DNA from: Caecibacter massiliensis
Lineage (GTDB): Bacteria; Bacillota; Negativicutes; Veillonellales; Megasphaeraceae
Direction: 5' to 3'
Length of the DNA stretch: 64,000 bases
Assembly: GCA_900095875.1 (NCBI GenBank)
Contig: LT608311.1
Span: forward strand, 620,001 to 684,000
Shown here in pieces: positions 19,811 through 32,080 of this stretch (position 1 is its first letter; the number at the start of each line of letters is the position of its first letter). The notes under the pieces are model-generated. The model saw only the letters and a list, made by a program, of their open reading frames with translations, searched no databases and was not told where the DNA came from. Made by a program: the position numbers and the translations under genes.

Positions 19811-20842
19811 TTATTCAGCTGTCTTTTTTTCTAATTCAGCAATTTTCTTTTCCAGCTGTTTGATTTTTTTCGCCATGTCCGGCAAGTGTTTCAAATATAC
19901 CTGGGACCGTTTCCATTCCATATGAGGCTGCATCGGATATCCGGCATAGACCTGGTTGCCTTCCGCATTGCCGGTTATCCCGGTCTTTCCCGCAAAAACA
20001 GCATTGTCTCCGATGGTAATATGGCCTGTACAGCCCACCTGGCCGGCAAAGATGCAGTGATTACCCGCCTTGGTACTGCCGGCAATCCCTACCTGGGCTA
20101 TGATGAAGCAGTCTTCCCCGATTTCCACATTATGGCCGAGATGGACAAGATTGTCTATTTTAGTACCCCGTTTGACAACGGTGCTGTCAAGAGTTCCATT
20201 ATCGATGCACGTACAGGCCCCGATTTCTACGTCATCGCCGATTTTGACATTGCCAATCTGGGGAATGCGCGTATGACGGCCTTCGTTTGTAGCAAAGCCA
20301 AAACCTTCACCGCCGATAACCGCATGGGCACGGACGACAAGACGATCTCCGAGCTGGCAGTTTTCGTGGATGACAGCACCGGGATAAATGACGGCATCGT
20401 CACCGATAGAGACATTATCGCCAATGAAAACATAGGGATAAATGACGCAGTTCTTTCCTATGCTGACATTCCTGCCAATGACAGCATAGGCCATGACAGC
20501 GGCATTGTCCCCCAGGACAGCACTGTCATCTACGACGGCCGTAGGATGAATGCCCCGGGCCACGGTCTGCCGGGGATGGAAGAGCACCAGGAGCTGGGAA
20601 AAAGCCAGGCGCGGATTTTTTACCAGTACGAGTGTATTATCCCCGGCCGGGACTTCTTTTTCCACAATGACGGCACCGGCATGAACCTGAGGCAGATATT
20701 CCGTATATGGATCTACTGCAAAGGTGATATCCTCCAGACCTGCTTCCTGCAGCCCCTTGATATCTTCAATTTCCCGCGTGCCATCACCGATCACCGTACC
20801 GCCCAGTATGGCGGCCAACTCCTGTACTGTCTTCTTCAACAT
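19811..20842 (-). CDS. lpxD: UDP-3-O-acyl-glucosamine N-acyltransferase LpxD
   Basis: About 343 residues from the ATG at 20842, which sits six bases after AAGGGG; a TTG two codons upstream is less likely. The N-terminal uridine-binding domain (residues 1-100) leads into a left-handed parallel beta helix of hexapeptide repeats. The catalytic His lies in LVHLGHNVEIGEDCF. The C-terminus is a coiled-coil helix (PDMAKKIKQLEKKIAELEKK). LpxD adds the N-linked acyl chain in lipid A synthesis. Skp/OmpH genes upstream match the bamA-skp-lpxD order of proteobacteria. Confidence 0.95.
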   Translation of the reverse strand: MLKKTVQELAAILGGTVIGDGTREIEDIKGLQEAGLEDITFAVDPYTEYLPQVHAGAVIVEKEVPAGDNTLVLVKNPRLAFSQLLVLFHPRQTVARGIHPTAVVDDSAVLGDNAAVMAYAVIGRNVSIGKNCVIYPYVFIGDNVSIGDDAVIYPGAVIHENCQLGDRLVVRAHAVIGGEGFGFATNEGRHTRIPQIGNVKIGDDVEIGACTCIDNGTLDSTVVKRGTKIDNLVHLGHNVEIGEDCFIIAQVGIAGSTKAGNHCIFAGQVGCTGHITIGDNAVFAGKTGITGNAEGNQVYAGYPMQPHMEWKRSQVYLKHLPDMAKKIKQLEKKIAELEKKTAE

Positions 20843-20853
20843 AGTCAACCCCT

Positions 20854-21273
20854 TTATTGTAATTTCGCAATCAAATCATCGGTTACATCGACGCCGCCGT
20901 TGGGAACGACTTCCTTATAGACGATGATGCCGACGTTTTTATCCTTGGCGATATCCCCTAATTTGCTCTGGATATCGGTCATGAACTGACGCTGCATACT
21001 GGCTGCGTATATCTGCTTTTCCTGTAATGCCTGCTGCTGTTTCTTCTGGAAATCTTCCGCTGACATGGACTGCTGGGCCTGCTGCAGTTCGGCATCGAGA
21101 GATTTGCTCTTTTCTTCTATCTTCTGTTGATACTGCTGTACGGCCGGTGCTTCTTTCTGTACGCGGCTCATATCTACATAGCCTACTTTATCTTCACTAC
21201 CGCAGCCGCTGAGTACGGCAACTGCCGCTATCATGCATAAAACAGCAGCCAATCGTTTACCTATCCGTTTCAT
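20854..21273 (-). CDS. OmpH/Skp-family periplasmic chaperone, predicted lipoprotein
   Basis: 139 residues. A signal peptide ends in a lipobox (VAVLSGCGSED), so the mature protein is probably lipid-anchored, unlike soluble Skp of E. coli. A long helical hairpin of Gln/Lys/Glu-rich residues follows (about 35-95), then a conserved end DKNVGIIVYKEVVPNGGVDV. Skp proteins hold unfolded outer-membrane proteins on the way to BamA. It is the last of three OmpH-like genes placed in a row between bamA and lpxD. Confidence 0.85.
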   Translation of the reverse strand: MKRIGKRLAAVLCMIAAVAVLSGCGSEDKVGYVDMSRVQKEAPAVQQYQQKIEEKSKSLDAELQQAQQSMSAEDFQKKQQQALQEKQIYAASMQRQFMTDIQSKLGDIAKDKNVGIIVYKEVVPNGGVDVTDDLIAKLQ

Positions 21274-21290
21274 TCGTATAATGCCTCCTG

Positions 21291-22229
21291 TTATGCCAGC
21301 TTGACAATGATATCATCGGTCACATCCAGCGCCGTGCCGATGCCTTCGTATTCAGAGAATATGATATCGATTCCCTGTTCTTCCGCAACGGCCGCCGCTT
21401 TATCCCGGATATCTGCCAGGATGGCTTCTTTCTGATCCTTCATTTCTTTTTCTTTTGCTTCAAGTTTCTCTTTCCAGGCCGCATTCCAGACAGCCGGTTC
21501 CGGACGCTTCCCAAAAGAATCCATTTGTTTCGTGAACAATTCCCGACTGGATTGCTGCCGGGCCGCCAGTTCATCTTTTACCTGAAGCGCATATGCCTGC
21601 AGTTCTTTCTGTGCTTTTTCCTTATCGGGAGCCATGGCAGCGGCAATATCCGCCGCTGCAGCCGCGTCCGTCTGATGGTCGCCGCCGTTTTTGCGCAACA
21701 GTGCCTGCAGTTCCTGTTCTGCTGCCTTACGTTCCGACGGAGACAGGGCCAATGCAGCCAGTTTCAGCCGGAGATTGACGATCTTCAGATTTTCTTCATC
21801 AGAAAGGGCCGGCTGTGTCTGCCGGCGTTCCCGGATCAGAGTCTGATACCGCTGCTCCAGTGCCGCATTCAATTCATTCTGTTTAATGGCCACCCGGGCC
21901 TGTAATTCCTGATCCAGAGCCGCTGATGACAACGCATCGGTCATAGAAAAGTCTTTCGCCGCCTGCCCCTGGGATGCAGCCTGCTTCGAGTAATGCCACT
22001 GTTCAAACTGATACTGGGCTACCATCGCATTATATTCCAGTTCCAGGCGATGGTACTGGCTGTACGAGGGATGGCTCATCATGATGTGTTCTACATCGGC
22101 GCAGGCAATAACCGGCCCTTTTTCTGTAACAGGCACAGCCGGCGTCCGGCTGTGCATCATCCAGAAAGCCACAGCCAGGCAAAAGGCCAGCACTACGGCG
22201 CCAGCAGCTGCCGCATAATTACGCTTCAT
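21291..22229 (-). CDS. OmpH-like membrane-anchored coiled-coil protein
   Basis: About 312 residues from the ATG at 22229 (behind AAGG), longer than ordinary Skp. One N-terminal membrane segment (AAAGAVVLAFCLAVAFWMMH) has no clear cleavage site. The periplasmic part begins VIACADVEHIMMSHPSYSQY, as OmpH proteins do. It then has about 180 residues of charged helix and ends in a domain (IDIIFSEYEGIGTALDVTDD) that echoes the ends of its two neighbours. It is probably a Skp-like chaperone with a lengthened helix. Its function is inferred from similarity and position only. Confidence 0.7.
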   Translation of the reverse strand: MKRNYAAAAGAVVLAFCLAVAFWMMHSRTPAVPVTEKGPVIACADVEHIMMSHPSYSQYHRLELEYNAMVAQYQFEQWHYSKQAASQGQAAKDFSMTDALSSAALDQELQARVAIKQNELNAALEQRYQTLIRERRQTQPALSDEENLKIVNLRLKLAALALSPSERKAAEQELQALLRKNGGDHQTDAAAAADIAAAMAPDKEKAQKELQAYALQVKDELAARQQSSRELFTKQMDSFGKRPEPAVWNAAWKEKLEAKEKEMKDQKEAILADIRDKAAAVAEEQGIDIIFSEYEGIGTALDVTDDIIVKLA

Positions 22230-22239
22230 GGCAATATCC

Positions 22240-22725
22240 TTACTTGGACTGGGATTCACTCAGTTTCTTGGAAACCTGTTCTGTAATATCCTGACCACCA
22301 TAGAGAACGGCCCGTTTATCGACGACAAGGCTCAGGCCTTTCGTGCTGGCAACGCTGCCGACGGCTTCATCGACTTTATCTTTGACGCCCTTATAGATGT
22401 CTTCTTGTTTTTTCGTCATTTCTTCCTGAATCTGCTGATAGAGCTGACTCTTCTGTTCATCGGTCATACCCTGGGACTGTTCTTCAAATTTTTTCTTGGC
22501 ATCTTCCGAGGCCTGCTGCATTTCTTTCTGTGCATTGGCTACATCCTGATTATCGGGCGGAATGACCTTGCTCATATCGACGACGCCGATATTGCTGGAC
22601 GGCGCTGCACTGACGGGATTGCCCATCTGCATGACGGCAATGCCGGCAACACTCAGTACAAAAATCGCTGCAATGACAGCGGAAAAAATCTTGACATTCT
22701 TTTTCTTACCCATTTCTGACATCAT
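22240..22725 (-). CDS. OmpH/Skp-family protein, membrane-anchored
   Basis: About 161 residues from the ATG at 22725, preceded by AAAGGAG; a longer frame to 22854 would overlap the previous gene by about 100 bases and is rejected. An N-terminal membrane segment (IFSAVIAAIFVLSVAGIAVM) precedes SSNIGVVDMSKVIPPDN, the usual OmpH opening, a helical arm rich in Gln and Lys, and the end LSLVVDKRAVLYGGQDIT, a strong OmpH signature. The first of three such genes after bamA and the unknown exported protein. Confidence 0.82.
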   Translation of the reverse strand: MMSEMGKKKNVKIFSAVIAAIFVLSVAGIAVMQMGNPVSAAPSSNIGVVDMSKVIPPDNQDVANAQKEMQQASEDAKKKFEEQSQGMTDEQKSQLYQQIQEEMTKKQEDIYKGVKDKVDEAVGSVASTKGLSLVVDKRAVLYGGQDITEQVSKKLSESQSK

Positions 22726-22750
22726 AGTAACATTACTCCTTTGCAATTCC

Positions 22751-24049
22751 TTATAAATAGCCAATAACCCGCAGCCACGTATCGTGGCCGGAAATGATAT
22801 ATTCCAAACCGACGTATTCATGGAGACGGTACAAGAGTCCCGCCTCTTCATCATGGTTTGTCAGATCTTTATCGAACCGGAAAGACCAGCGGCCCCCTAA
22901 TTTCTGCCGCAGCCAAAGATGATGGCTGTCATCCTGGCTTTCAAAATTATATCCCATCCAAGTTCCCTTTCGGGGCTGATACCCGTAACCGGGAATGAAG
23001 TTCCAGGCTACAGAAGCAGGCATGAATTCCACGTCTGTATACAACTCATGGTGTTTGCCGATTTTTCTGCCCACATGGGCCCGCAGGACCGTATTATCTT
23101 CTTTATCATGATAGGCATCACTGTCCCTGCTGACGTCTATGTAGGCCTGTGCGCGGACATCGTAAAAATCCGTTTCCGATTTTAAATGGATATCCATATT
23201 TTCAGCAACGGAAAGACTGGGAAGGACGCGCAGCTTATATTTCTTTATGACCCACTGGTCATTCAGATGCTGCTGCAAATCACGCTCTACATCGCGCTGA
23301 TGGCGGCGCACAAATGCAACAGGCAGGCCATTCAGGCCTGCATAACGGTCTTCCATATGCTTGCGCGTACTGAGAAAGATGATCTTGGGCAGGTTTTCCG
23401 CATCGACGCGGACGTTGACATTGCGCACAACGGGAAGTACCGGCAGAAAATACACTTCTACCGTCGTATCCGCGCCGGGCGTAATGACAATGTGCGGATA
23501 AAATTCTGGAAGTTCTGTCTCCAGTTCCGTCTCCATAACAGCCTTGACCGTGCCATTTGCCCAGTCCAGAGCATCGACGGGAAGACCGGTCAGGAGATTT
23601 TCAATAAAAGCCGAAACGCCGGTCAGGTCCCTGCCAGCCATTTCTTGTCCCAATGTCGGAAGAGATCCATAGTCAAAGCGGACATGTACCCGGCGTATGG
23701 TACTTCCCCAGGGGCGGATCTGCACAGACAGCATCGTTTCCGGTCCCGGCACGAGTTCGATATGTTCGACCGTATACCCTATGAGCACGCGGTCCGTAAT
23801 GTCGTAAACCATGCGGGTATACTCATCCTGCCGGTTCAGCACGGCCTGGTCATCGGCACCGAGGAACACGTGATTCCCAATCGTCTCAATGCTGGCACAT
23901 ATCCTCTTCTCGGCAAGAGGCGGTATGGCCTCTCCCAGAGAAGAGACGCGTACCGCCACATGAGTTACGGGTGCCGCTATGGCACTACCTAGACTAGCAC
24001 AGACAAAGAGAATCGTCAATAAACAAGTGCGAAACACGACGTATCCCAC
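22751..24049 (-). CDS. Exported protein of unknown function (envelope cluster)
   Basis: I do not recognise this protein. 432 residues with a signal peptide (FRTCLLTILFVCASLGSAIA-APV). The middle has two repeats of an alpha/beta pattern suggestive of POTRA-like folds (VEHIELVPGPETMLSVQI and IVITPGADTTVEVYFLPVLP). The last 130 residues are alternating polar and aromatic stretches such as HHLWLRQKLGGRWSFRFD, compatible with beta strands of a small outer-membrane barrel, although the last residue is Leu. The start may be the GTG at 24037 behind AGGTGG. Position between bamA and three skp-like genes suggests a role in outer-membrane protein assembly. Confidence 0.55.
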   Translation of the reverse strand: MGYVVFRTCLLTILFVCASLGSAIAAPVTHVAVRVSSLGEAIPPLAEKRICASIETIGNHVFLGADDQAVLNRQDEYTRMVYDITDRVLIGYTVEHIELVPGPETMLSVQIRPWGSTIRRVHVRFDYGSLPTLGQEMAGRDLTGVSAFIENLLTGLPVDALDWANGTVKAVMETELETELPEFYPHIVITPGADTTVEVYFLPVLPVVRNVNVRVDAENLPKIIFLSTRKHMEDRYAGLNGLPVAFVRRHQRDVERDLQQHLNDQWVIKKYKLRVLPSLSVAENMDIHLKSETDFYDVRAQAYIDVSRDSDAYHDKEDNTVLRAHVGRKIGKHHELYTDVEFMPASVAWNFIPGYGYQPRKGTWMGYNFESQDDSHHLWLRQKLGGRWSFRFDKDLTNHDEEAGLLYRLHEYVGLEYIISGHDTWLRVIGYL

Positions 24050-24065
24050 CTATCGTCTGCATACA

Positions 24066-26366
24066 TCAGAACTTCCCACCAAAGCTGAAGTGGAACTTGC
24101 CGCCATCGTCGCCGACGCCGTAATCCAGGCGGATAGGCCCGATTGGCGTCGTGATGCGGAATCCGAGACCGGTGGAAACGTGGATACTGTCATCGTTCTG
24201 ATACCAGGGGATATTTTCCGTTCCATCCCAGGCAGAACCGGCATCGACAAAGAAGACGCCTTGGATTTTCTTGGCAATCGGATAGCGGTATTCTACCGTC
24301 GCCGCATACATCTTGTTGCCACGGAATTCATCGTCTTCATAGCCACGCAGGTTATCGGCGCCGCCCAAAGTGAAGAGGTCATAGTACGGCATATCGCCGT
24401 TGGCATAGCCGCCCATAAAGCGCAGGGCAATGACATGCTTGCGGCCTACTTTGTAGTACAGACGGTTTTCAAAAGTCAGTTTATAGTAATCGAAGTCACC
24501 GCCCAGGCCATGACCGGCAATAGCTGCCGTGTAGGAAATCCTCTTGCCACGGGTCGGATCATAGACATTATCACGGTTATCAAAGACGTGGGACCAGGTC
24601 AGGCTGTTCGTCCGGCCAAAGTTCTTGCCCTCGTAATCCATACCTTTAAAGTCATATCCTTTATTACGAGGATCGTCTGCTCCCCCTTTATAGTAGAATC
24701 CACTGTTCCATTCATCGTATTTCGTCCGTTTCGTTTCCAACGTAACGTAATCGCTGACGTATTCGCTGCGGACGCGGCCATAGGTCAGGTTGAAGCCTTT
24801 TGTTTCCCGGTCGTAATCGGCAACGGAATTGCCTTTTTCATCGTAATCTTCGTAATCGTATTCCCGGTTGAACAGGCTGAAGCCGATAGAATCGCCATGG
24901 TCATTGAGCCACGGATGGGTGTAGGAGAACGTGTAATTGTGATTGGAATCAGTTTCACCGCCAAATTCCCAGTTAATGGCTACCTTGTCACCAGTACCGC
25001 GGAAATTGCTTTCCGAAAGCCCCAACAGGCCTACCATACCGTTCGACTGGGAATAACCGCCGCCAATGGAAATCTGGCCGGTCTTGGCTTCGACGACGTC
25101 GATTTCCATGATGACGTCGTTGGGATTCTTTTTGCCCGGCAGCATGCGGACGTTAATATCTTCAAAGTACCCCGTATTGTAAATCCGTTCCACACTGCGG
25201 CTGGCGGCGGCACGGTTAAACACATCGCCTTTCTTCATGCGTACTTCCCGGGTCACAACACGGGATTTGGTCTTGGTATTACCGCGGACGACGACATCTT
25301 CCAGATGGCATTCCGTAATGCCGATATGAAGGATACCCTTGCTGTCCAGCGTCGCATTGGATACATGGCTGTACATATAACCGTCTTTCGCATAGAGGTT
25401 ATTGATGTTGGCTACGTCTTTACTGATGATGGTGCTGTTCAGCGGTGAACCCGGTACGAACTGGATCATCTGCTGGAGCGCTTCCGTCTTATAGACTTTA
25501 TTGCCGGTAATTTCTACACCGTTGATGACGGGATTGAGCTGTACGGCATAATTCAGGGCCACCCCTTCCGGCACGTTGGTAAAGGAAGGATGGACCGTCG
25601 AGAAAAGACCGGTAGAACCGATGACATTGACATCATGGCGGACATAATCGGCACTGACCGTATCACCGACGCGCATGGCTAATTTCGGCAGCAGGTAGGC
25701 TTCAATGGCCGGGTCCGGTACAGGGCCAACGCTTACTGCCGTCGTCACTTTATTGGCATAAGGAGCGATGGATTCATCGGTGACAACATTACCATAGGGC
25801 ATGGTGCTTTCCTGCCCTGGCTCCAGTACCGCCATAGGATACTTGGGAATCGTCGTATCGATTTGTACGTCACCGAGGCCGGCCATGTACGGCACAGAGG
25901 CTCCGGGGAGGCCTTCTTCTTTAGCCGATTCTGCTGTACCGACCGTCCCCTGTTCGTATCCCGTATTGCCGCTGATGACGGACTTTGCCACCTGGCTCTT
26001 CCGTTCCTGTTCGGCCTGTTCAATTTTTTCTACCTGTTCTTTTTCAGCCGGCTTGCGTACGTCTTCCGGCTTTTCCCCCTTGGCAATGGCTGCCAGTTCT
26101 TCATCCGTTTCGTACCCCGTAAGGCCGGATTTTGCATTCTTCATGACGGCTTCTGTCTCCGGCGTTGAAGCACTGGTCACTACCGTATTGAGTGCCATAG
26201 GCTTTTCTTCGTCTTTTGCGGTCATGTCTGAAGCGGATACCTTTTTTTCTACGGTCTGTCCGGGATCTGCATCATAGCCTGTTGCCGTGTCTGCAGCCCA
26301 TACGGGACTTGTCACCATAGCACTGGTAATCATCATCAATAAAAATTTCTTATTCCGTGTTATCAT
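24066..26366 (-). CDS. bamA: Outer membrane protein assembly factor BamA (Omp85)
   Basis: About 766 residues from the ATG at 26366 with GGAGGG at good spacing; an earlier ATG (26384) overlaps the previous gene and lacks a clear site. After a signal peptide (ending SPVWA-AD) comes an unusual low-complexity stretch of about 170 residues, then about three POTRA domains (to about residue 430), then the 16-strand barrel with the conserved LRGYEDDEF motif and a terminal Phe (FGGKF). BamA inserts barrel proteins into the outer membrane. The N-terminal extension holds three TGY(E/D) motifs. Confidence 0.94.
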   Translation of the reverse strand: MITRNKKFLLMMITSAMVTSPVWAADTATGYDADPGQTVEKKVSASDMTAKDEEKPMALNTVVTSASTPETEAVMKNAKSGLTGYETDEELAAIAKGEKPEDVRKPAEKEQVEKIEQAEQERKSQVAKSVISGNTGYEQGTVGTAESAKEEGLPGASVPYMAGLGDVQIDTTIPKYPMAVLEPGQESTMPYGNVVTDESIAPYANKVTTAVSVGPVPDPAIEAYLLPKLAMRVGDTVSADYVRHDVNVIGSTGLFSTVHPSFTNVPEGVALNYAVQLNPVINGVEITGNKVYKTEALQQMIQFVPGSPLNSTIISKDVANINNLYAKDGYMYSHVSNATLDSKGILHIGITECHLEDVVVRGNTKTKSRVVTREVRMKKGDVFNRAAASRSVERIYNTGYFEDINVRMLPGKKNPNDVIMEIDVVEAKTGQISIGGGYSQSNGMVGLLGLSESNFRGTGDKVAINWEFGGETDSNHNYTFSYTHPWLNDHGDSIGFSLFNREYDYEDYDEKGNSVADYDRETKGFNLTYGRVRSEYVSDYVTLETKRTKYDEWNSGFYYKGGADDPRNKGYDFKGMDYEGKNFGRTNSLTWSHVFDNRDNVYDPTRGKRISYTAAIAGHGLGGDFDYYKLTFENRLYYKVGRKHVIALRFMGGYANGDMPYYDLFTLGGADNLRGYEDDEFRGNKMYAATVEYRYPIAKKIQGVFFVDAGSAWDGTENIPWYQNDDSIHVSTGLGFRITTPIGPIRLDYGVGDDGGKFHFSFGGKF

Positions 26367-26380
26367 AAGACCCTCCGTTG

Positions 26381-26986
26381 TCATTTCTTGGTTTCCGCAC
26401 CGCGCAAACTATGACGCGCATCTTGTACGGCAGCCTGTATCTGCCGGTCCGATAAAACCTTTTTTTGTACAGGCTGTGTATATGGTACAGTCGCAGGTGG
26501 CGGTTCCGTTCTTTCCGTCTCCTGTCCTGTTTCCCCCTGTTGTACTGCCGGCAATACACCGGTATCATCTGTACTTGCAGGAACCGGTTGCACCGCCGGT
26601 ATTTCTTCTACTGCCCTGTCTTCTGCCGTTACGATTGATTCCGGCTCAGCTACAGGTTGTGAATCCGGCGCTGTCATCGTCGTCCGTGACGTATCCGCTG
26701 CCGTTTCGCCGCGGACAGGCCGGGTAAAATCAGCTGGCGGCCCTTCCGGACGTGTAAACTGCCAGATGCCCAGAGCCAGCGCCAAAGCAGTCAGGACTGC
26801 CGCCAGCCGGCGGATTTTACAGCCCATACCGTGGTTTTTTCGAAGATTTTTCATCTCCGCTTCTGCCAGCATGAGATTCAGTTCCCCACGGACATCAGCT
26901 TTATTGTCAAAAGACTTTTCAGCCCGTTCCAGCCAGGCTCTGGCAGAACGGACACGCTCGGCCCGTTCATTATCTGATTTTGCCAT
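26381..26986 (-). CDS. One-pass membrane protein of unknown function; possible anti-sigma factor
   Basis: I do not recognise this gene. About 201 residues from the ATG at 26986, behind AAAGGAG. The first 60 residues are charged and helical (ERAERVRSARAWLERAEKSF, ELNLMLAEAEMKNLRKN) and should be cytoplasmic. One membrane helix follows (LAAVLTALALALGIWQF), then about 115 Pro/Glu/Thr-rich residues outside. The layout of cytoplasmic helical domain, single helix and extracytoplasmic tail is that of anti-sigma factors, and the sigma gene lies directly upstream. No known anti-sigma motif is visible, so this is inference. Confidence 0.5.
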   Translation of the reverse strand: MAKSDNERAERVRSARAWLERAEKSFDNKADVRGELNLMLAEAEMKNLRKNHGMGCKIRRLAAVLTALALALGIWQFTRPEGPPADFTRPVRGETAADTSRTTMTAPDSQPVAEPESIVTAEDRAVEEIPAVQPVPASTDDTGVLPAVQQGETGQETERTEPPPATVPYTQPVQKKVLSDRQIQAAVQDARHSLRGAETKK

Positions 26987-27013
26987 ACTGCGCAAGCTCC
27001 TTTCCCAGCATGT

Positions 27014-27042
27014 TTATAAAATCCTGAAAAAGACAGCCTCAA
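27014..27042 (-). promoter_or_regulatory. Possible promoter of the membrane-protein/bamA unit
   Basis: Minus strand: -35 TTGAGG, 17-base spacer, -10 TTATAA, in the 147-base gap after the sigma-factor gene. A nearby direct repeat (CGGGAGAATACGGGAGAA) lies upstream at 27098-27115 approximately. Both elements are imperfect. Confidence 0.4.
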
Positions 27043-27133
27043 CAAACAAGTAAATATGGGAAGAAGACGATATCTATCTTGGAAATACTCATCGTTTCTC
27101 CCGTATTCTCCCGTTTATACCATATTTTCTTTT

Positions 27134-27772
27134 TTACTTCTCTTTGTTGTCATGAATAAACCGGCTCAGCATGCCTCTCACACGGCGGATTCCCCGTTTC
27201 TGCAGCCGGTATACATAAGGCAGGCTGACAGACAGGTCCTCGGCCAGGGATTTTTGCTGCTGATCTTTGAGATAGACGCCTTCCACGACGATCTGTTCCT
27301 TCTGAGGCAGACGCTGTAATGTCTGGGCTACGTGTTCAAACAGAATCTGCCGGCCTGTCCTGTCTGCCAGATCCTCCGCCCCGTCTGGCAGCTGATCCCG
27401 CAGGGTAACGCCGTTTTCATCGGGTTCGTCGAGAGACAGGGAAGACCGTTTATTTTCCTTTTGGAGAAAATCCAGGATTTCCCCGCGGATACGATGGACG
27501 GCAAAAATAGGAAAGGCCACATTGCGCCCGTAATCATACCGTTCCACCGCTTCAATCAGTCCCAGCGTTCCTTCCTGCAGGGCGTCCTGCAGAATATCCC
27601 CGGAAATGTGCCAACGCATCGCTTCCCGGAAAACCAGCGGCTGGTACTGTTCAATGAGCCGCCGCCGGCTCTCCTGGTCCCCCCGGTCTTTATATGCGCG
27701 CCAGAGTTCTCTTTCTTCTTCCGGAGCCAGAAGTTTTATCTGTTGTAATTCTTTTAAATATGTCTCCAGCAA
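27134..27772 (-). CDS. RNA polymerase sigma factor, sigma-70 family (alternative)
   Basis: 212 residues. Region 2 is visible (YQPLVFREAMRWHISGDILQ DALQEGTLGLIEAVERYDY in parts) and region 4 ends in a helix-turn-helix (SLAEDLSVSLPYVYRLQKRG). Region 1 is missing and region 3 is present, so it resembles group 3 factors rather than RpoD or an ECF factor. It starts with TTG, 12 bases after the tamB stop, behind a G-rich site. Placement inside an outer-membrane biogenesis operon and directly before a membrane protein suggests a role in envelope control. Confidence 0.82.
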   Translation of the reverse strand: MLETYLKELQQIKLLAPEEERELWRAYKDRGDQESRRRLIEQYQPLVFREAMRWHISGDILQDALQEGTLGLIEAVERYDYGRNVAFPIFAVHRIRGEILDFLQKENKRSSLSLDEPDENGVTLRDQLPDGAEDLADRTGRQILFEHVAQTLQRLPQKEQIVVEGVYLKDQQQKSLAEDLSVSLPYVYRLQKRGIRRVRGMLSRFIHDNKEK

Positions 27773-27784
27773 CTTCTGTCCCCC

Positions 27785-30700
27785 CTAATAGAAGCTGTAT
27801 TTATACATGCCGCCAATAAAGGAATCATCTGCCGATTTCCAAGCGGCCACACCAAACTTACTTCCCAAATTATACTGCATACCTATGCGGTTGTCATCAT
27901 GATTGAGGCCAAAAGCAGCTGTCAGCATGAAATCATTGAACAAATACTTGCCCATTTCTATATTATAATAATTATTTTCCACATCAGCTGTCTTGCTGTT
28001 GTAATCCAGTGACCCTGTCGTAATGTTGAGCATATCTAGATTCAGTGCCTTTTCCAGCGCCTGTGTAATCCCCAGACTGTTGAGCGTCATGCGGATGCCG
28101 CTCCCTATAAGTGTATTGACATCTTCACTATTAAGGGAACTGTCTTTTTTGCCACTGCTGTTCCTGAGCGTAATCAGGGAAAGAATCTGGGCCTTCGTAA
28201 GCGGCGGATTGGATCGCAGCATCAGGTCCATCGCATCGGCAGGACCGCGCAGATTGAGCAGGACATTGTACTGACCGACACGGGTATGACCTTCCACGTC
28301 CAGATAGGGGAGGAATGTATCGGGCTGATTAAATTCAGCTTTTGCCCGGGATACACGGAAATTCGTATCCAAATAGTGAATAGTCCCTCGGGAAGCTTCA
28401 AAGCCGCCCGTTCCATGGGGATGAGCCAGCGTGCCGCCAAAATGAGCCTTGCCATGCACCATCAGGTCGTAAAGCGCCCCATTATACAGCCGCACATCAT
28501 CTCCCAGTGCGACCGTAATGTCGAGAGCGGCATCAAAATTGCTTTCCGTATCACTCAGGCTCAGGGGCAGATCCAGTGTCGTATCATCTATCGTAATGGT
28601 TCCGGACAGCAATGGCATGCCATCACCGGGCGAGACAGTCAGGTTTCCCGTCAGCGGTCCGGTAAAATACGGACAGACGACTCCCAGATGATCGAGTGCA
28701 AGCAATCCTTTGTACGACGTGACTTCCCATCCCTGCCAGGATGCATCTGCCTGTACCTGCAATTTTCCCGGATTTTTCGCCTTTGCCTTATCCATAACGG
28801 CAGAACCGGAAAACGCTGCTTTGCGTCCCGTAAATTGAAGCTGCCCCGTAATCCGTGTCAGCGGATTACGCACGGTCCGGATGGACAAAGAACCGTCATC
28901 GACACTCAACGTACCGTATACCTGTGGATCCGCAGCCGTACCTTTTAACTGCAGCGAACCATTCAGTCCGCCCTGGGCTTCAGTAATAAGAGGCGTGACA
29001 AAAGTCAGTATATCCAGGCCGGCATGATCCAGTTTTACCATAACGTCCATAGATTCGTCTGTTTTTTCACCGGTCAGAGCCGCTACGGGAATCGTCCCGG
29101 AGGCGCTCGCCTTATACGGATCCTTCAGGATATATGCCTGATGGACCTTAATCATGCGGTCCCGCAGATTGAGCAGGGCATACATGCCAGTAAAGGAAAT
29201 GCCATTGACCATGCCACTTCCGAGCTGCAGAGACACATCAGCACTGGGATGATCTCCTGTCCCGCTCAGATTAGCTGCAAAATCGACAGGCGCATCAATC
29301 TGGACATTCGTCTGTCCCGTTACCGCCGCCAGCAGCCGGGCCGGGAAATGGTGGGCAGCAATCTGCATCTGTACCGGCCCATGAAGGGCATACGATCCCT
29401 GGGCAGCCAGCACGGCATCGCCGGACTTCAGGGTAAGTTCATGAATCTGTACGGCATTGTTTTCGTATTGGACATCAATACGGGCAGGTTCTACAGCTGC
29501 ATCATCAATATATCCCTGGGTCAGAGTCCCGGTCAGACGTGCCCGGGGATCATCGGTTGTCCCATCGATAGCCAGCTGCCCTTCCAGACGCCCCTGTATG
29601 GACTGCAGGGGTGCTCCCGACAGTTTCAGGATACTGCCCAGATCCGCAGCCTGCACGCGGGCCCGCGCCATAATCCAGCCATTCGCCGGATTATACCCGC
29701 CACGCAGTTCATAAGTCCCTCCGTTCTGTTTAAAATGAAAATCGGTCAACCGGAAAATACCGCCGTAATAACCGAGGTTGCCTTGTATATCATCGAGGGC
29801 TATGCCATTAAAGGTCAGTGAGTCTGACTGGAGAGACCCTTCAAAGACAGGATTGTCCATCGTACCGCCAAGATGCCCTCTGACATTCATGATACCGGAA
29901 CGCTGAGGCCCTTTTTGCGGTACCAGGCGGGCAATATCGAGATGGCTGCCGTCCAGGGTCAGATCCATATGCTGTCCCAGGTAACCGGCGACGCGGATAG
30001 ATGCATCATAGGCTGTAATATCGCCGTTGGTGATATAGACAGTGCCATCCCGCAATGTATAATCGGCACTGACATTTTTGTACAAATAGCCATAAGCAGA
30101 GCCACTGGTCAGATGGAACGATCCCTGTGCCGAAGGCTGATCGAGACTGCCCGTCACGGTAATCGTATTATCGGCCCAGCCTGTAAGAGGAATATCTCCC
30201 CGTCCCAATGCTGGCAGCAGCCGTTCCAGACGCATATGCTGTGTCACAACCTGCAGATTCACCTGCCGGGTATCCAGATCAGCCATACCACTGGCTCTAT
30301 GAGTCCCATCGTTGTAACGCCACACGACAGACGGTATCAGAATACGGCTTCCACTACCGGAAAGAGAGCCGTCGATACTATCAAAGTCCATCCCCTGTAT
30401 ACTGCCGTCGCGGGCATGGAAAATCAAATTCCAGTCCGGTCCGGAACCATATAGGTGTCCGGCAGCAGAAAAGGTGCCGGTCATAGGTACTGCTGCATAT
30501 GCAGATGCCATATCAAGTGGCAGATTGTCTGCTGTAAAGGAAAGATCCGTACGGGGCCCCTCCGTATCATACACGCCATGGACCCGGACTGTTCCTCCCT
30601 GCACGGAAGCAGTCAGCCCTGACAGAGACAGCAATCCATCAGCATAGATAAAGTCACCTTCCGCCTGATCTGCCTCGATGCCATTATAGGAAAAACCTGC

Positions 30701-32080
30701 CGCGCTGGCATGACCGGAAGCCTGGACTGTCCCCTGATTCTGATTGCCCGAAACGGTCAGGGAAGCCGACACCGTGCCCAGAACCGAAACAGGCAGCTGG
30801 CTTATTTCTTCGAGGTGGATGGAATCAGCATCGAGAGAGGCCTGAAAATCACCACTGGACAGGTTGTATGTTCCCGAACCTTCCAGATGGCCTCCAGCTG
30901 CATCAGCAGACAGATGGGATATATCAGCCTGACTGCCATCGCAAGAAAAGACAACTTCGCCATGATACAGTGTCGTTCCATCATAGGTCAGTTCTGGTAC
31001 AGTCAGTGTTCCACTGCCGCGTATTTCACTGGCCGTTCCCCAGATGCTGCCCTTAAAGGCAGCCGTACCAGAAATGCCAGCTGGCAGCTTATCGGCAAAA
31101 GCAGCAAGATCGGCGCCGGGTACATCCACATCCAGATTGAATACGGGAACATCCCCATTGATGCGTACTTCACCTGAGGCGCTGATATCCTGTCCATTAA
31201 TGCGGCCTTTCAGCCGGTCAATCCGGACGTTTTGTGAATTCAGCCGCACCGTTCCGCTGACCTGGTCATAGGAAAGGCCCGATGCCGTACCGGACAGATT
31301 ATCTACAGAAGCCGTTCCCGACAGAGAATCCCCGTTATGCGAGCGGGCATAACGGACCCGTATATCACGGAGCGCACCTTCTTCTACAGTCACATCCGTT
31401 CCAGACGGAATGAACGATGATGCATAAGATGCTTTAACAGCATCGCCACGAAGCAGGACATCGAATTCCCGCGATGAAGTATAATGACCGGAAGCCGTCA
31501 GCTTTTCTCCATCGACATACAGCGTCATATCTCCATAGATAGCCGGGTAGGACGTAAAATCGAGAGTCCCGTCACCCCCGCTGCCCGTAATCAGCGTGCC
31601 ATCGGCCAGCCGTGCCCTGACAGCTCCATCGTGAAACCGCACAATTGCCCGGAATCCACTGTCCGCCTTTTCCTTCGATGTCTTAATAAGCGTCGCAACA
31701 TTCCACGTATTATCAGACGGTTTCTGCCACACATGGACAACCGGCTGGGAAATATCCACCGTCTCTATAGCCGCAGCCGGATTACCATCAGGAAGGGATG
31801 CCACTATTTTCCAGGGATTGACAAAAATCTGTATATCCGAACCAGAAAGCACAGTACGTCCCTGCGTATCCCGGATAACCGGGTCCTGCAGCCTGACTCG
31901 GCCGGACAACGAAACATCCATAGCACTAAAGGTTAGTGTTCCGTTTATTTTATCATTCACTGTACTCGTCACTGTCTCAGAGAGTTTTTGCATCAATGCC
32001 GGCTTTTCCATCCACAGGGAAAAGAGTGCGGCAAAGAGGAATACAAAGACTGCACCGGATACAAGCCATTTTTTTCGCAC
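27785..32080 (-). CDS. tamB: TamB-like translocation/assembly module protein (AsmA-like, DUF490)
   Basis: 1431 residues. A single N-terminal anchor (LVSGAVFVFLFAALFSLWM) is followed by hundreds of residues of repeating beta-strand units (for example GSLQSDSLTFNGIALDDIQG), which in TamB form a long hydrophobic groove. The C-terminal DUF490 region ends in aromatic residues (GGMYKYSFY). TamB bridges inner and outer membranes and moves phospholipids. It starts with GTG, six bases after GGAGG. The first partner expected in proteobacteria, TamA, is missing; BamA is the likely partner. A terminator lies just before the gene. Confidence 0.9.
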   Translation of the reverse strand: MRKKWLVSGAVFVFLFAALFSLWMEKPALMQKLSETVTSTVNDKINGTLTFSAMDVSLSGRVRLQDPVIRDTQGRTVLSGSDIQIFVNPWKIVASLPDGNPAAAIETVDISQPVVHVWQKPSDNTWNVATLIKTSKEKADSGFRAIVRFHDGAVRARLADGTLITGSGGDGTLDFTSYPAIYGDMTLYVDGEKLTASGHYTSSREFDVLLRGDAVKASYASSFIPSGTDVTVEEGALRDIRVRYARSHNGDSLSGTASVDNLSGTASGLSYDQVSGTVRLNSQNVRIDRLKGRINGQDISASGEVRINGDVPVFNLDVDVPGADLAAFADKLPAGISGTAAFKGSIWGTASEIRGSGTLTVPELTYDGTTLYHGEVVFSCDGSQADISHLSADAAGGHLEGSGTYNLSSGDFQASLDADSIHLEEISQLPVSVLGTVSASLTVSGNQNQGTVQASGHASAAGFSYNGIEADQAEGDFIYADGLLSLSGLTASVQGGTVRVHGVYDTEGPRTDLSFTADNLPLDMASAYAAVPMTGTFSAAGHLYGSGPDWNLIFHARDGSIQGMDFDSIDGSLSGSGSRILIPSVVWRYNDGTHRASGMADLDTRQVNLQVVTQHMRLERLLPALGRGDIPLTGWADNTITVTGSLDQPSAQGSFHLTSGSAYGYLYKNVSADYTLRDGTVYITNGDITAYDASIRVAGYLGQHMDLTLDGSHLDIARLVPQKGPQRSGIMNVRGHLGGTMDNPVFEGSLQSDSLTFNGIALDDIQGNLGYYGGIFRLTDFHFKQNGGTYELRGGYNPANGWIMARARVQAADLGSILKLSGAPLQSIQGRLEGQLAIDGTTDDPRARLTGTLTQGYIDDAAVEPARIDVQYENNAVQIHELTLKSGDAVLAAQGSYALHGPVQMQIAAHHFPARLLAAVTGQTNVQIDAPVDFAANLSGTGDHPSADVSLQLGSGMVNGISFTGMYALLNLRDRMIKVHQAYILKDPYKASASGTIPVAALTGEKTDESMDVMVKLDHAGLDILTFVTPLITEAQGGLNGSLQLKGTAADPQVYGTLSVDDGSLSIRTVRNPLTRITGQLQFTGRKAAFSGSAVMDKAKAKNPGKLQVQADASWQGWEVTSYKGLLALDHLGVVCPYFTGPLTGNLTVSPGDGMPLLSGTITIDDTTLDLPLSLSDTESNFDAALDITVALGDDVRLYNGALYDLMVHGKAHFGGTLAHPHGTGGFEASRGTIHYLDTNFRVSRAKAEFNQPDTFLPYLDVEGHTRVGQYNVLLNLRGPADAMDLMLRSNPPLTKAQILSLITLRNSSGKKDSSLNSEDVNTLIGSGIRMTLNSLGITQALEKALNLDMLNITTGSLDYNSKTADVENNYYNIEMGKYLFNDFMLTAAFGLNHDDNRIGMQYNLGSKFGVAAWKSADDSFIGGMYKYSFY

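Follow-up and report, generated by a model that had tools for sequence, protein, structure and literature searches.

Membrane partners encoded beside sigma factor genes are mostly inhibitors. RpoE of Proteobacteria, whose partner is RseA, is an ECF sigma factor encoded away from bamA. In the FecI/FecR/FecA system, an inner-membrane protein links a cytoplasmic sigma factor, the ECF protein FecI, to an outer-membrane protein, and in the SigI/RsgI systems of Clostridia and Bacillus the neighbor of the sigma gene encodes a protein that crosses the membrane once and has a small domain in the cytoplasm and a long part outside. In E. coli, yaeT (bamA) is regulated by sigma-E, which also transcribes lpxA, lpxB, and lpxD (PMC2215328). 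The anti-sigma factor RsiG is described as being built on a two-helix antiparallel coiled coil and as using c-di-GMP through the motif E(X)3S(X)2R(X)3Q(X)3D, and the word 'membrane' occurs 0 times in the available part of that WhiG/RsiG paper (PMC8325347). For the Firmicutes with an outer membrane, no regulator of the second membrane was named in the portions of the literature consulted. In the available text of the phylogenomic paper that defined the gene cluster, 'sigma' is absent from the main text, the genes may be drawn in the figures, and the locus is said to hold 'hypothetical proteins' and others not known as outer-membrane-related (PMC5007114). In the available part of a paper on Mla in Veillonella parvula, 'sigma' appears only as the name of a supplier (PMC10665443).

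The window analyzed here, a stretch of 64,000 nucleotides from Caecibacter massiliensis, carries a sigma factor gene and a gene for a one-pass membrane protein, here called mem, between tamB and bamA. Our reading, to which we assign a probability of about 0.65, is that the two proteins form a transenvelope sigma/anti-sigma switch for outer-membrane biogenesis that autoregulates mem-bamA-skp-lpxD. The sequence-based support consists of the co-retention of the pair, its location, the predicted topology of Mem, a promoter-like element before mem, and the absence of this element before bamA in genomes lacking the sigma factor; from these we would infer direct binding, inhibition, promoter recognition, the extent of the operon, and the signal. 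The genes of the locus are as follows.

33858-32239, minus strand: tolC, name given by eye
27785..32080, minus strand: tamB, upstream neighbor of the sigma gene (Pfam PF04357, E 4e-43)
27134..27772, minus strand: sigma-70 family factor, 212 aa, with regions 1.2 (weak), 2, and 4 and no region 3 match
26381..26986, minus strand: mem, one-pass membrane protein by predicted topology, 201 aa from ATG 26986
24066..26384, minus strand: bamA, downstream neighbor and presumed target (Omp85, E 4e-54; TIGR03303, 312.4 bits, cut-off 297.15)
22751..24049, minus strand: conserved 432-aa protein after bamA, no Pfam or NCBIfam match
22240..22854, minus strand: Skp/OmpH-like gene (PF03938, E 9e-12)
19811..20848, minus strand: lpxD, further along the same strand, name given by eye from sequence

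The gene order on the minus strand is tolC, tamB, sigma, mem, bamA, 432-aa protein, skp-like genes, lpxD. The first-pass annotation had described a 212-residue sigma factor 12 bases after tamB, followed by a membrane protein and then bamA, and this was confirmed by the coordinates, with exactly 12 bases from the end of tamB to the start of the sigma gene, and by Pfam. The start of bamA overlaps the end of mem by 4 bases. The list of open reading frames put the start of mem at TTG 26995; ATG 26986 is better spaced from AGGAG, and the gap of 147 bases between the sigma gene and this ATG holds a conserved promoter-like element. The tamB-bamA stretch had no match among plasmid records. Farther downstream, positions 20854-22854 (minus strand) hold three consecutive genes for Skp/OmpH-like or similar small secreted proteins ahead of lpxD, the first of which was covered by the family scan.

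The sigma protein belongs to the sigma-70 superfamily, in that both region 2 (61.6 bits, E 6e-17, cut-off 24) and region 4 (28.2 bits, E 1e-6, cut-off 24.1) scored above the Pfam cut-offs, with ~43 residues between them. Region 1.2 (PF00140) in the window reached E 5e-4 and 20.3 bits, slightly below the cut-off of 22. At E <= 0.01, regions 2 and 4 were found in 67/67 sigma relatives and region 1.2 in 41/67, while Sigma70_r3 was found in 0/67, a result of the profile test and not of structure. The superfamily model TIGR02937 was the sole NCBIfam model whose cut-off was reached among the matches listed (25 families). SigF and SigBFG were among the top matches, and the group 3 cut-offs were not reached (FliA_WhiG, 67.7 of 189.6 bits; SigBFG, 85.3 of 234.35 bits). 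The nearest solved sequences were FliA (6pmi, E 5e-29) and WhiG (6pfv, 6pfj). The protein does not have the ECF (group 4) composition of regions 2 and 4 alone, as region 1.2 was recognized and the best specific matches were of the SigF, SigB, FliA, and WhiG types. The whole genome contained four sigma-70 region-2 matches including this one; the strongest, in a 414-aa frame, is presumably RpoD, and another is a SigH-like protein, an assignment made by eye on the basis of sequence and neighboring genes. The fourth is a divergent sigma-like protein of 206 aa (L004:1108-1728) with a very weak region 2 (E 0.15). RseA_N (PF03872) had no match anywhere in the genome at E <= 1, in line with the absence of RseA reported earlier. 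The genome also contains a gene of the site-2-protease family (PF02163); this says little, because all 14 control genomes have one too.

The predicted parts of Mem are the following.

26813..26986, minus strand: residues 1-58, cytoplasmic helical hairpin with conserved W18, A22, E23, G34, L36, L40, A41, A43, and E44
26747..26806, minus strand: residues about 61-80, membrane helix oriented with its positive side inwards
26450..26746, minus strand: residues about 81-179, linker of variable sequence, rich in Pro/Glu/Ala and predicted to be disordered (blocks of pLDDT 49-69)
26390..26449, minus strand: residues about 180-199, amphipathic helix conserved at the C terminus, with the consensus EMQKLxxxAGKSLRG

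The protein had been described as a helical cytoplasmic part, one membrane helix, and a Pro/Glu-rich outer part, and the K/R bias and the AlphaFold prediction bore this out. Among 135 distinct Mem proteins, the mean number of K/R was 4.5 before the membrane helix vs 1.1 after it, and the helix starts near residue 63, with 73-156 residues then remaining to the end. A hydropathy cut-off of 1.6 was passed once by 106/135 proteins and twice by none; the 29/135 below it (peaks 1.15-1.59) include the Mem of the window at 1.56, and AlphaFold predicted the membrane segment as a confident helix. AlphaFold2 of Mem alone (67 rows) gave helices at residues 2-27, 31-78, and 180-199 and low confidence elsewhere. 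A loose C-terminal pattern, run without a control, fitted 126/135 proteins, and the tail was amphipathic, with a mean z of 2.0 vs shuffles (105 distinct tails). By prediction, Mem has the layout of a transmembrane anti-sigma factor, with a cytoplasmic domain, one membrane helix, and an outer part.

No known family, whether or not related to regulation, could be assigned to Mem. Ten diverse members reached no Pfam or NCBIfam cut-off, the Mem of the window matched 0 Pfam and 0 NCBIfam families, and among the matches listed no Pfam family touched more than 3/67 members at E <= 1. A search at E <= 1 found RseA_N neither in the Mem of the window nor in nine diverse relatives, and RseA was not among the families listed (25 of 42 weak ones) for other members; one member touched an anti-sigma model at E 0.04 (NCBIfam, 67 members). 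The weak NCBIfam matches in ten members sit mainly over the membrane helix and linker. GltJ, which touched 18/67 members with a best E of 8e-7, and SrfA (13/67) were given no weight; GltJ reached at most 28.6 of 450 bits in ten diverse members, and all such matches were far below the cut-offs. Matches to PDB sequences were weak, the best given being VirB10 (E 0.005), with a weak likeness to DotF too, and single members weakly resembled TonB and RodZ. Foldseek gave no match at E <= 0.001, and a known fold may still underlie the protein.

Within the Negativicutes, the ortholog-level cut-offs were E <= 1e-24 for sigma and E <= 1e-12 for Mem. An ortholog-level sigma was found in 42 of the 60 relatives searched. 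The genes tamB, sigma, and mem occurred in this order in 30/30 loci examined, the window's own included, with bamA recognized within the 1.5-kb flank in 26/30, and the order tamB-sigma-mem-bamA was found in 40/40 class regions of ~12 kb (one shorter), each centered on a sigma match and picked to span many families. Among named genomes (best 80 of 325 relatives), sigma and mem were present in 80/80 and flanked by tamB and bamA in 79/80, including loci from Megasphaera, Anaeroglobus, Negativicoccus, Veillonella ratti, Selenomonas, Centipeda, Mitsuokella, Phascolarctobacterium, Pelosinus, Sporomusa, and others; these named loci and the other class genomes overlap heavily, and the sets are not independent. 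Adjacency beside bamA and tamB, whose conservation the first-pass annotation had proposed to check, was thus found throughout the class and also in eight genomes outside it. In the exception (L161:5881-7511, one short MAG contig of a rumen Selenomonadaceae), sigma and mem adjoin each other among other genes, away from tamB and bamA. L161, several near-duplicates, and rows with doubtful starts were dropped from sets A3/A4, and L021 and L111 (sigma in two frames) and L073 and L074 (repeat fetches) were dropped from A1/A2 or A3/A4. In L021/L111, from Megasphaera sp. NM10, the coding sequence of sigma is divided between two frames and mem is intact, reflecting a sequencing error or a recent loss.

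When the same 250 class genomes were compared for the two genes at the ortholog-level cut-offs, with the result tables compared by eye, 201 had both, 49 had neither, and 0 had a single one. Before weak matches were set aside, the sigma protein search had found 207/250 genomes at E <= 1e-12 and the mem profile 211/250 at E <= 1e-3; the cut-offs removed weak sigma matches in six genomes (4e-14 to 9e-13) and weak mem matches in ten (E 2e-5 to 1e-3), of which seven had no sigma match among those listed. Close inspection of 13 class genomes without an ortholog-level sigma, three of which (G104, G137, G214) belong to the weak sigma matches, revealed neither sigma nor mem beside bamA. In 11/13, tamB directly adjoins bamA, with gaps of ~100-400 bases between the open frames, and in 2/13 tamB was not recognized in the flank. 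These 13 genomes fall in four families (f2, f4, f12, f16), genus f4-g5 included, which argues for several joint losses of the pair. Consistent with such a loss, the tamB and bamA genes of Veillonella parvula are numbered consecutively, as Vpar_0526 and Vpar_0527, in the part of the source considered (PMC5491611). Within what is probably one family, genus f4-g5 (L075-L078) is without the pair and Veillonella ratti (L164) has it, offering a natural experiment for the switch. In its both-or-neither pattern and its adjacency, the pair is encoded side by side and co-inherited, a property by which transmembrane anti-sigma factors are recognized.

Co-retention would fit equally well if Mem were a positive, FecR-like partner, with sigma inactive or unstable without Mem and turned on by contact of the periplasmic tail, and the predicted topology would be the same, with a cytoplasmic domain, one membrane helix, and a periplasmic part with a conserved end helix. 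However, ten diverse Mem proteins had no FecR family match at E <= 1, and the inhibitory role of most membrane partners encoded beside sigma genes also speaks against this reading, which we consider unlikely. The position of mem between tamB and bamA, and a linker of sufficient length to bridge the periplasm with a conserved helix at its end, would also suit a structural tether from the inner membrane to BamA or TamB, in which case sigma would regulate the same operon and the two proteins would be unbound. VirB10 and DotF, and in single members TonB and RodZ, which Mem weakly resembles, all have a membrane helix and a Pro-rich stretch. A tether should outlive the sigma factor, however, and mem alone was found in 0/250 genomes at the cut-offs used; in addition, the cytoplasmic hairpin is conserved as well, and in L161 the pair is together away from tamB and bamA. 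We regard the tether as improbable. That sigma and mem are functionally unlinked passengers of a cluster conserved as a whole (tolC-tamB-...-bamA-432-aa protein) is disfavored and highly improbable, since tamB and bamA remain where the pair is gone, the sigma-less genomes of four families imply several joint losses, the pair is placed jointly in L161, and the single-gene losses to be expected occurred in 0/250 genomes at the cut-offs used.

Beyond the class, a phylum sample of 299 genomes contained ortholog-level sigma proteins in 9 class genomes and 8 genomes outside the class, all at E <= 6e-41, with the next genome at 5e-23. The ortholog was found in 17/74 Omp85-positive vs 0/225 Omp85-negative genomes (Fisher p about 1e-11, on the assumption of independent genomes, which does not hold). 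In 8/8 loci outside the class, the interval from tamB to bamA holds sigma and a mem homolog, with ~3 kb separating sigma from mem in one; these homologs were detected at profile E 2e-16 to 2e-19 (vs the open frames of ten loci), and the C-terminal motif was recognizable by eye in 6/8. In a tree of 40 sigma proteins, the 27 Negativicutes rows grouped together (support 100/97) and the 8 others fell outside this group, an arrangement that argues against recent transfer from Negativicutes. The ortholog was absent from 57/74 Omp85-positive genomes, and 20 Omp85 loci without it, one per family, had no sigma beside bamA and one mem match (E 0.009) that was not counted. An outer membrane thus does not require the pair, which is missing from these 57/74 genomes and from Veillonella-type genomes. 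The proposal of an independent solution to the problem served by RpoE and RseA is retained in part, in that the sigma factor falls outside the RpoE type and Mem is a protein other than RseA, and has to be narrowed, as the pair is not universal and is absent from many Omp85-bearing genomes. Outer-membrane Firmicutes often carry, in an outer-membrane operon, a sigma factor and a membrane partner that are kept and lost together and probably serve as a switch for building more outer membrane. A circuit confined to the Omp85-bearing genomes of the sample and patchily missing among them is a marker for the history of outer-membrane retention and loss in the phylum. The 432-aa protein follows bamA in 39/40 class regions, 77/80 named loci, and 5/8 loci outside the class; it has an apparent signal peptide followed by beta-rich repeats and is possibly an undescribed outer-membrane biogenesis factor.

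The gap between sigma and mem contains two promoter-like elements in the window.

27015..27024, minus strand: -10-like element GGATTTTATA, with 28 bases between the element and ATG 26986
27041..27047, minus strand: -35-like element, weaker than the -10-like one, with GTT placed 23 bases upstream of where the latter begins

Motif discovery was based on 94 non-redundant sigma-mem intergenic regions, 64/158 being left out as outside the class, short, or near-duplicate. At width 8 it returned GAtTATAt, a median of 40 bases ahead of mem, with a log-likelihood of 137.8 vs 9-14 in three shuffled sets; widths 10 and 14 returned other motifs, that of width 14 resembling a block conserved in Sporomusales. 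At a threshold of at least 8 bits, the -10-like element was present before mem in 71/94 regions (67/94 cross-validated) and missing in 23/94. At the same threshold it occurred before tamB in 8/76 regions, before bamA of pair loci in 1/78 (regions that are mostly mem coding sequence), in 2/20 pair-less Omp85 loci, and before bamA of sigma-less class genomes in 0/13, one of which rounds to 8.0 and falls just short. The element is found before mem and not before bamA of sigma-less genomes, and therefore goes with the pair and not with bamA as such. In the positional table, from which 8 of the 94 regions were left out, G[A/T][C/T] was enriched 22-24 bases before the -10-like element (47/86 vs 12/85, 23/83, and 3/86 in displaced controls). 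A FliA-like TAAA reading of the -35 part found AAA in 37/86 vs 11/85 displaced, and the stricter composite AAA-N14-17-[G/T]GA.TATA caught 14/80 loci; the -35 assignment is less certain than that of the -10 element. The simplest inference would be that this sigma factor reads the element before mem.

In Sporomusales loci (L044, L051, L053, and others), a perfect or near-perfect palindrome, CCAGAATCTGG, lies ~45-75 bases before mem in a conserved block, where a repressor or an activator may act on the mem promoter. The 29-base Sporomusales motif (<= 3 mismatches) was single-copy in 10/12 genomes and had zero copies in two, each copy lying just past the sigma gene. The pattern TGTT-N19-21-GGAT-NN-TATA gave 10 matches in 7/15 genus genomes, 3 of them before mem, vs 4 for the reversed control pattern; the window's own genome had two matches (control none), one before mem and the other without a convincing downstream gene on the same strand. 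A wider regulon beyond mem-bamA was thus not found with the Sporomusales motif in 12 genomes or the composite pattern in 15 genus genomes. Of the shared promoter motif that had been anticipated upstream of envelope genes, the conserved element before mem-bamA was recovered, but no wider set of envelope genes.

Contact between the two proteins was modeled with AlphaFold2 as one chain of sigma, the natural intergenic read-through, and Mem 1-93 (114 rows), giving a mean pLDDT of 86 and a pTM of 0.57. Taken by tens, Mem residues 11-50 had pLDDT values of 84, 70, 77, and 83 alone and about 95, 97, 95, and 92 beside sigma, and the membrane helix showed no rise and stayed at 90-95. The rise, seen with this one partner, may reflect packing of Mem on sigma, for which it is indirect support, and could also stem from the different alignment or chain. 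Covariation between sigma and Mem was not convincing, with a z of 4.2 for coarse clades and 1.1 for finer clades, and structure searches with the joint model listed sigma factors alone among the matches given. For the interface that the first-pass annotation proposed to look for, the gain in residues 11-50 is indirect support, and the joint pTM of 0.57 speaks against it.

In the sigma/anti-sigma switch that we favor, Mem would sit in the inner membrane, where its cytoplasmic helical hairpin would keep sigma inactive, and its long disordered linker would carry the conserved C-terminal helix into the periplasm, to something reporting outer-membrane assembly. A change of contact, or cleavage of Mem, would free sigma, which would then transcribe mem-bamA and the downstream genes (432-aa protein, skp-like, lpxD) from the promoter just before mem. 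The output would be more assembly machinery together with negative feedback through new Mem, that is, a homeostat. BamA, TamB, and Skp would be natural candidate partners of the periplasmic tail, because all are encoded beside mem. As a tentative extension, for which we would give less than even odds, Mem may be a direct BAM/TAM sensor whose C-terminal helix docks on the POTRA domains of BamA, on TamB, or on Skp, so that occupancy of the machine, and not misfolded porins, sets sigma activity; such a device of outer-membrane Firmicutes would be ancient and would predate the divergence of Negativicutes from several other phylum lineages. The pair was undescribed in the literature searched, which did not extend to subscription papers and preprints. 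Its apparent lack in the model organism Veillonella parvula may explain why it escaped notice. The pair is a testable candidate regulator of the second membrane, conserved across most of a class.

Among known systems, FecI/FecR/FecA shares the transenvelope logic; it differs in that FecI is an ECF sigma factor and the ten diverse Mem proteins have no FecR family match. SigI/RsgI similarly combines a sigma factor with an adjacent one-pass protein with a small inner and a long outer part, whereas no RsgI family match was found in the ten diverse Mem proteins. The sigma factor itself most resembles group 3 (FliA, SigB/SigF/SigG), although it scored below the family cut-offs and its region 3 was undetected. 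With WhiG/RsiG of Actinobacteria the pair shares WhiG as one of the nearest solved sigma factors, and the Mem hairpin may, like RsiG, be a two-helix antiparallel coiled coil; however, WhiG has three sigma domains, and the RsiG motif was not seen, on reading by eye, in the hairpin of the window's Mem or in the Mem consensus. RpoE/RseA of Proteobacteria is likewise a sigma factor with a one-pass inner-membrane partner, and the probable outputs overlap in bamA and lpx genes, as far as the available text on sigma-E goes (PMC2215328). In contrast, the sigma factor here has region 1.2 and is group 3-like, Mem has no RseA_N match, and the genes lie within the bamA neighborhood. The best reading is that the pair is analogous, not homologous, to RpoE/RseA.
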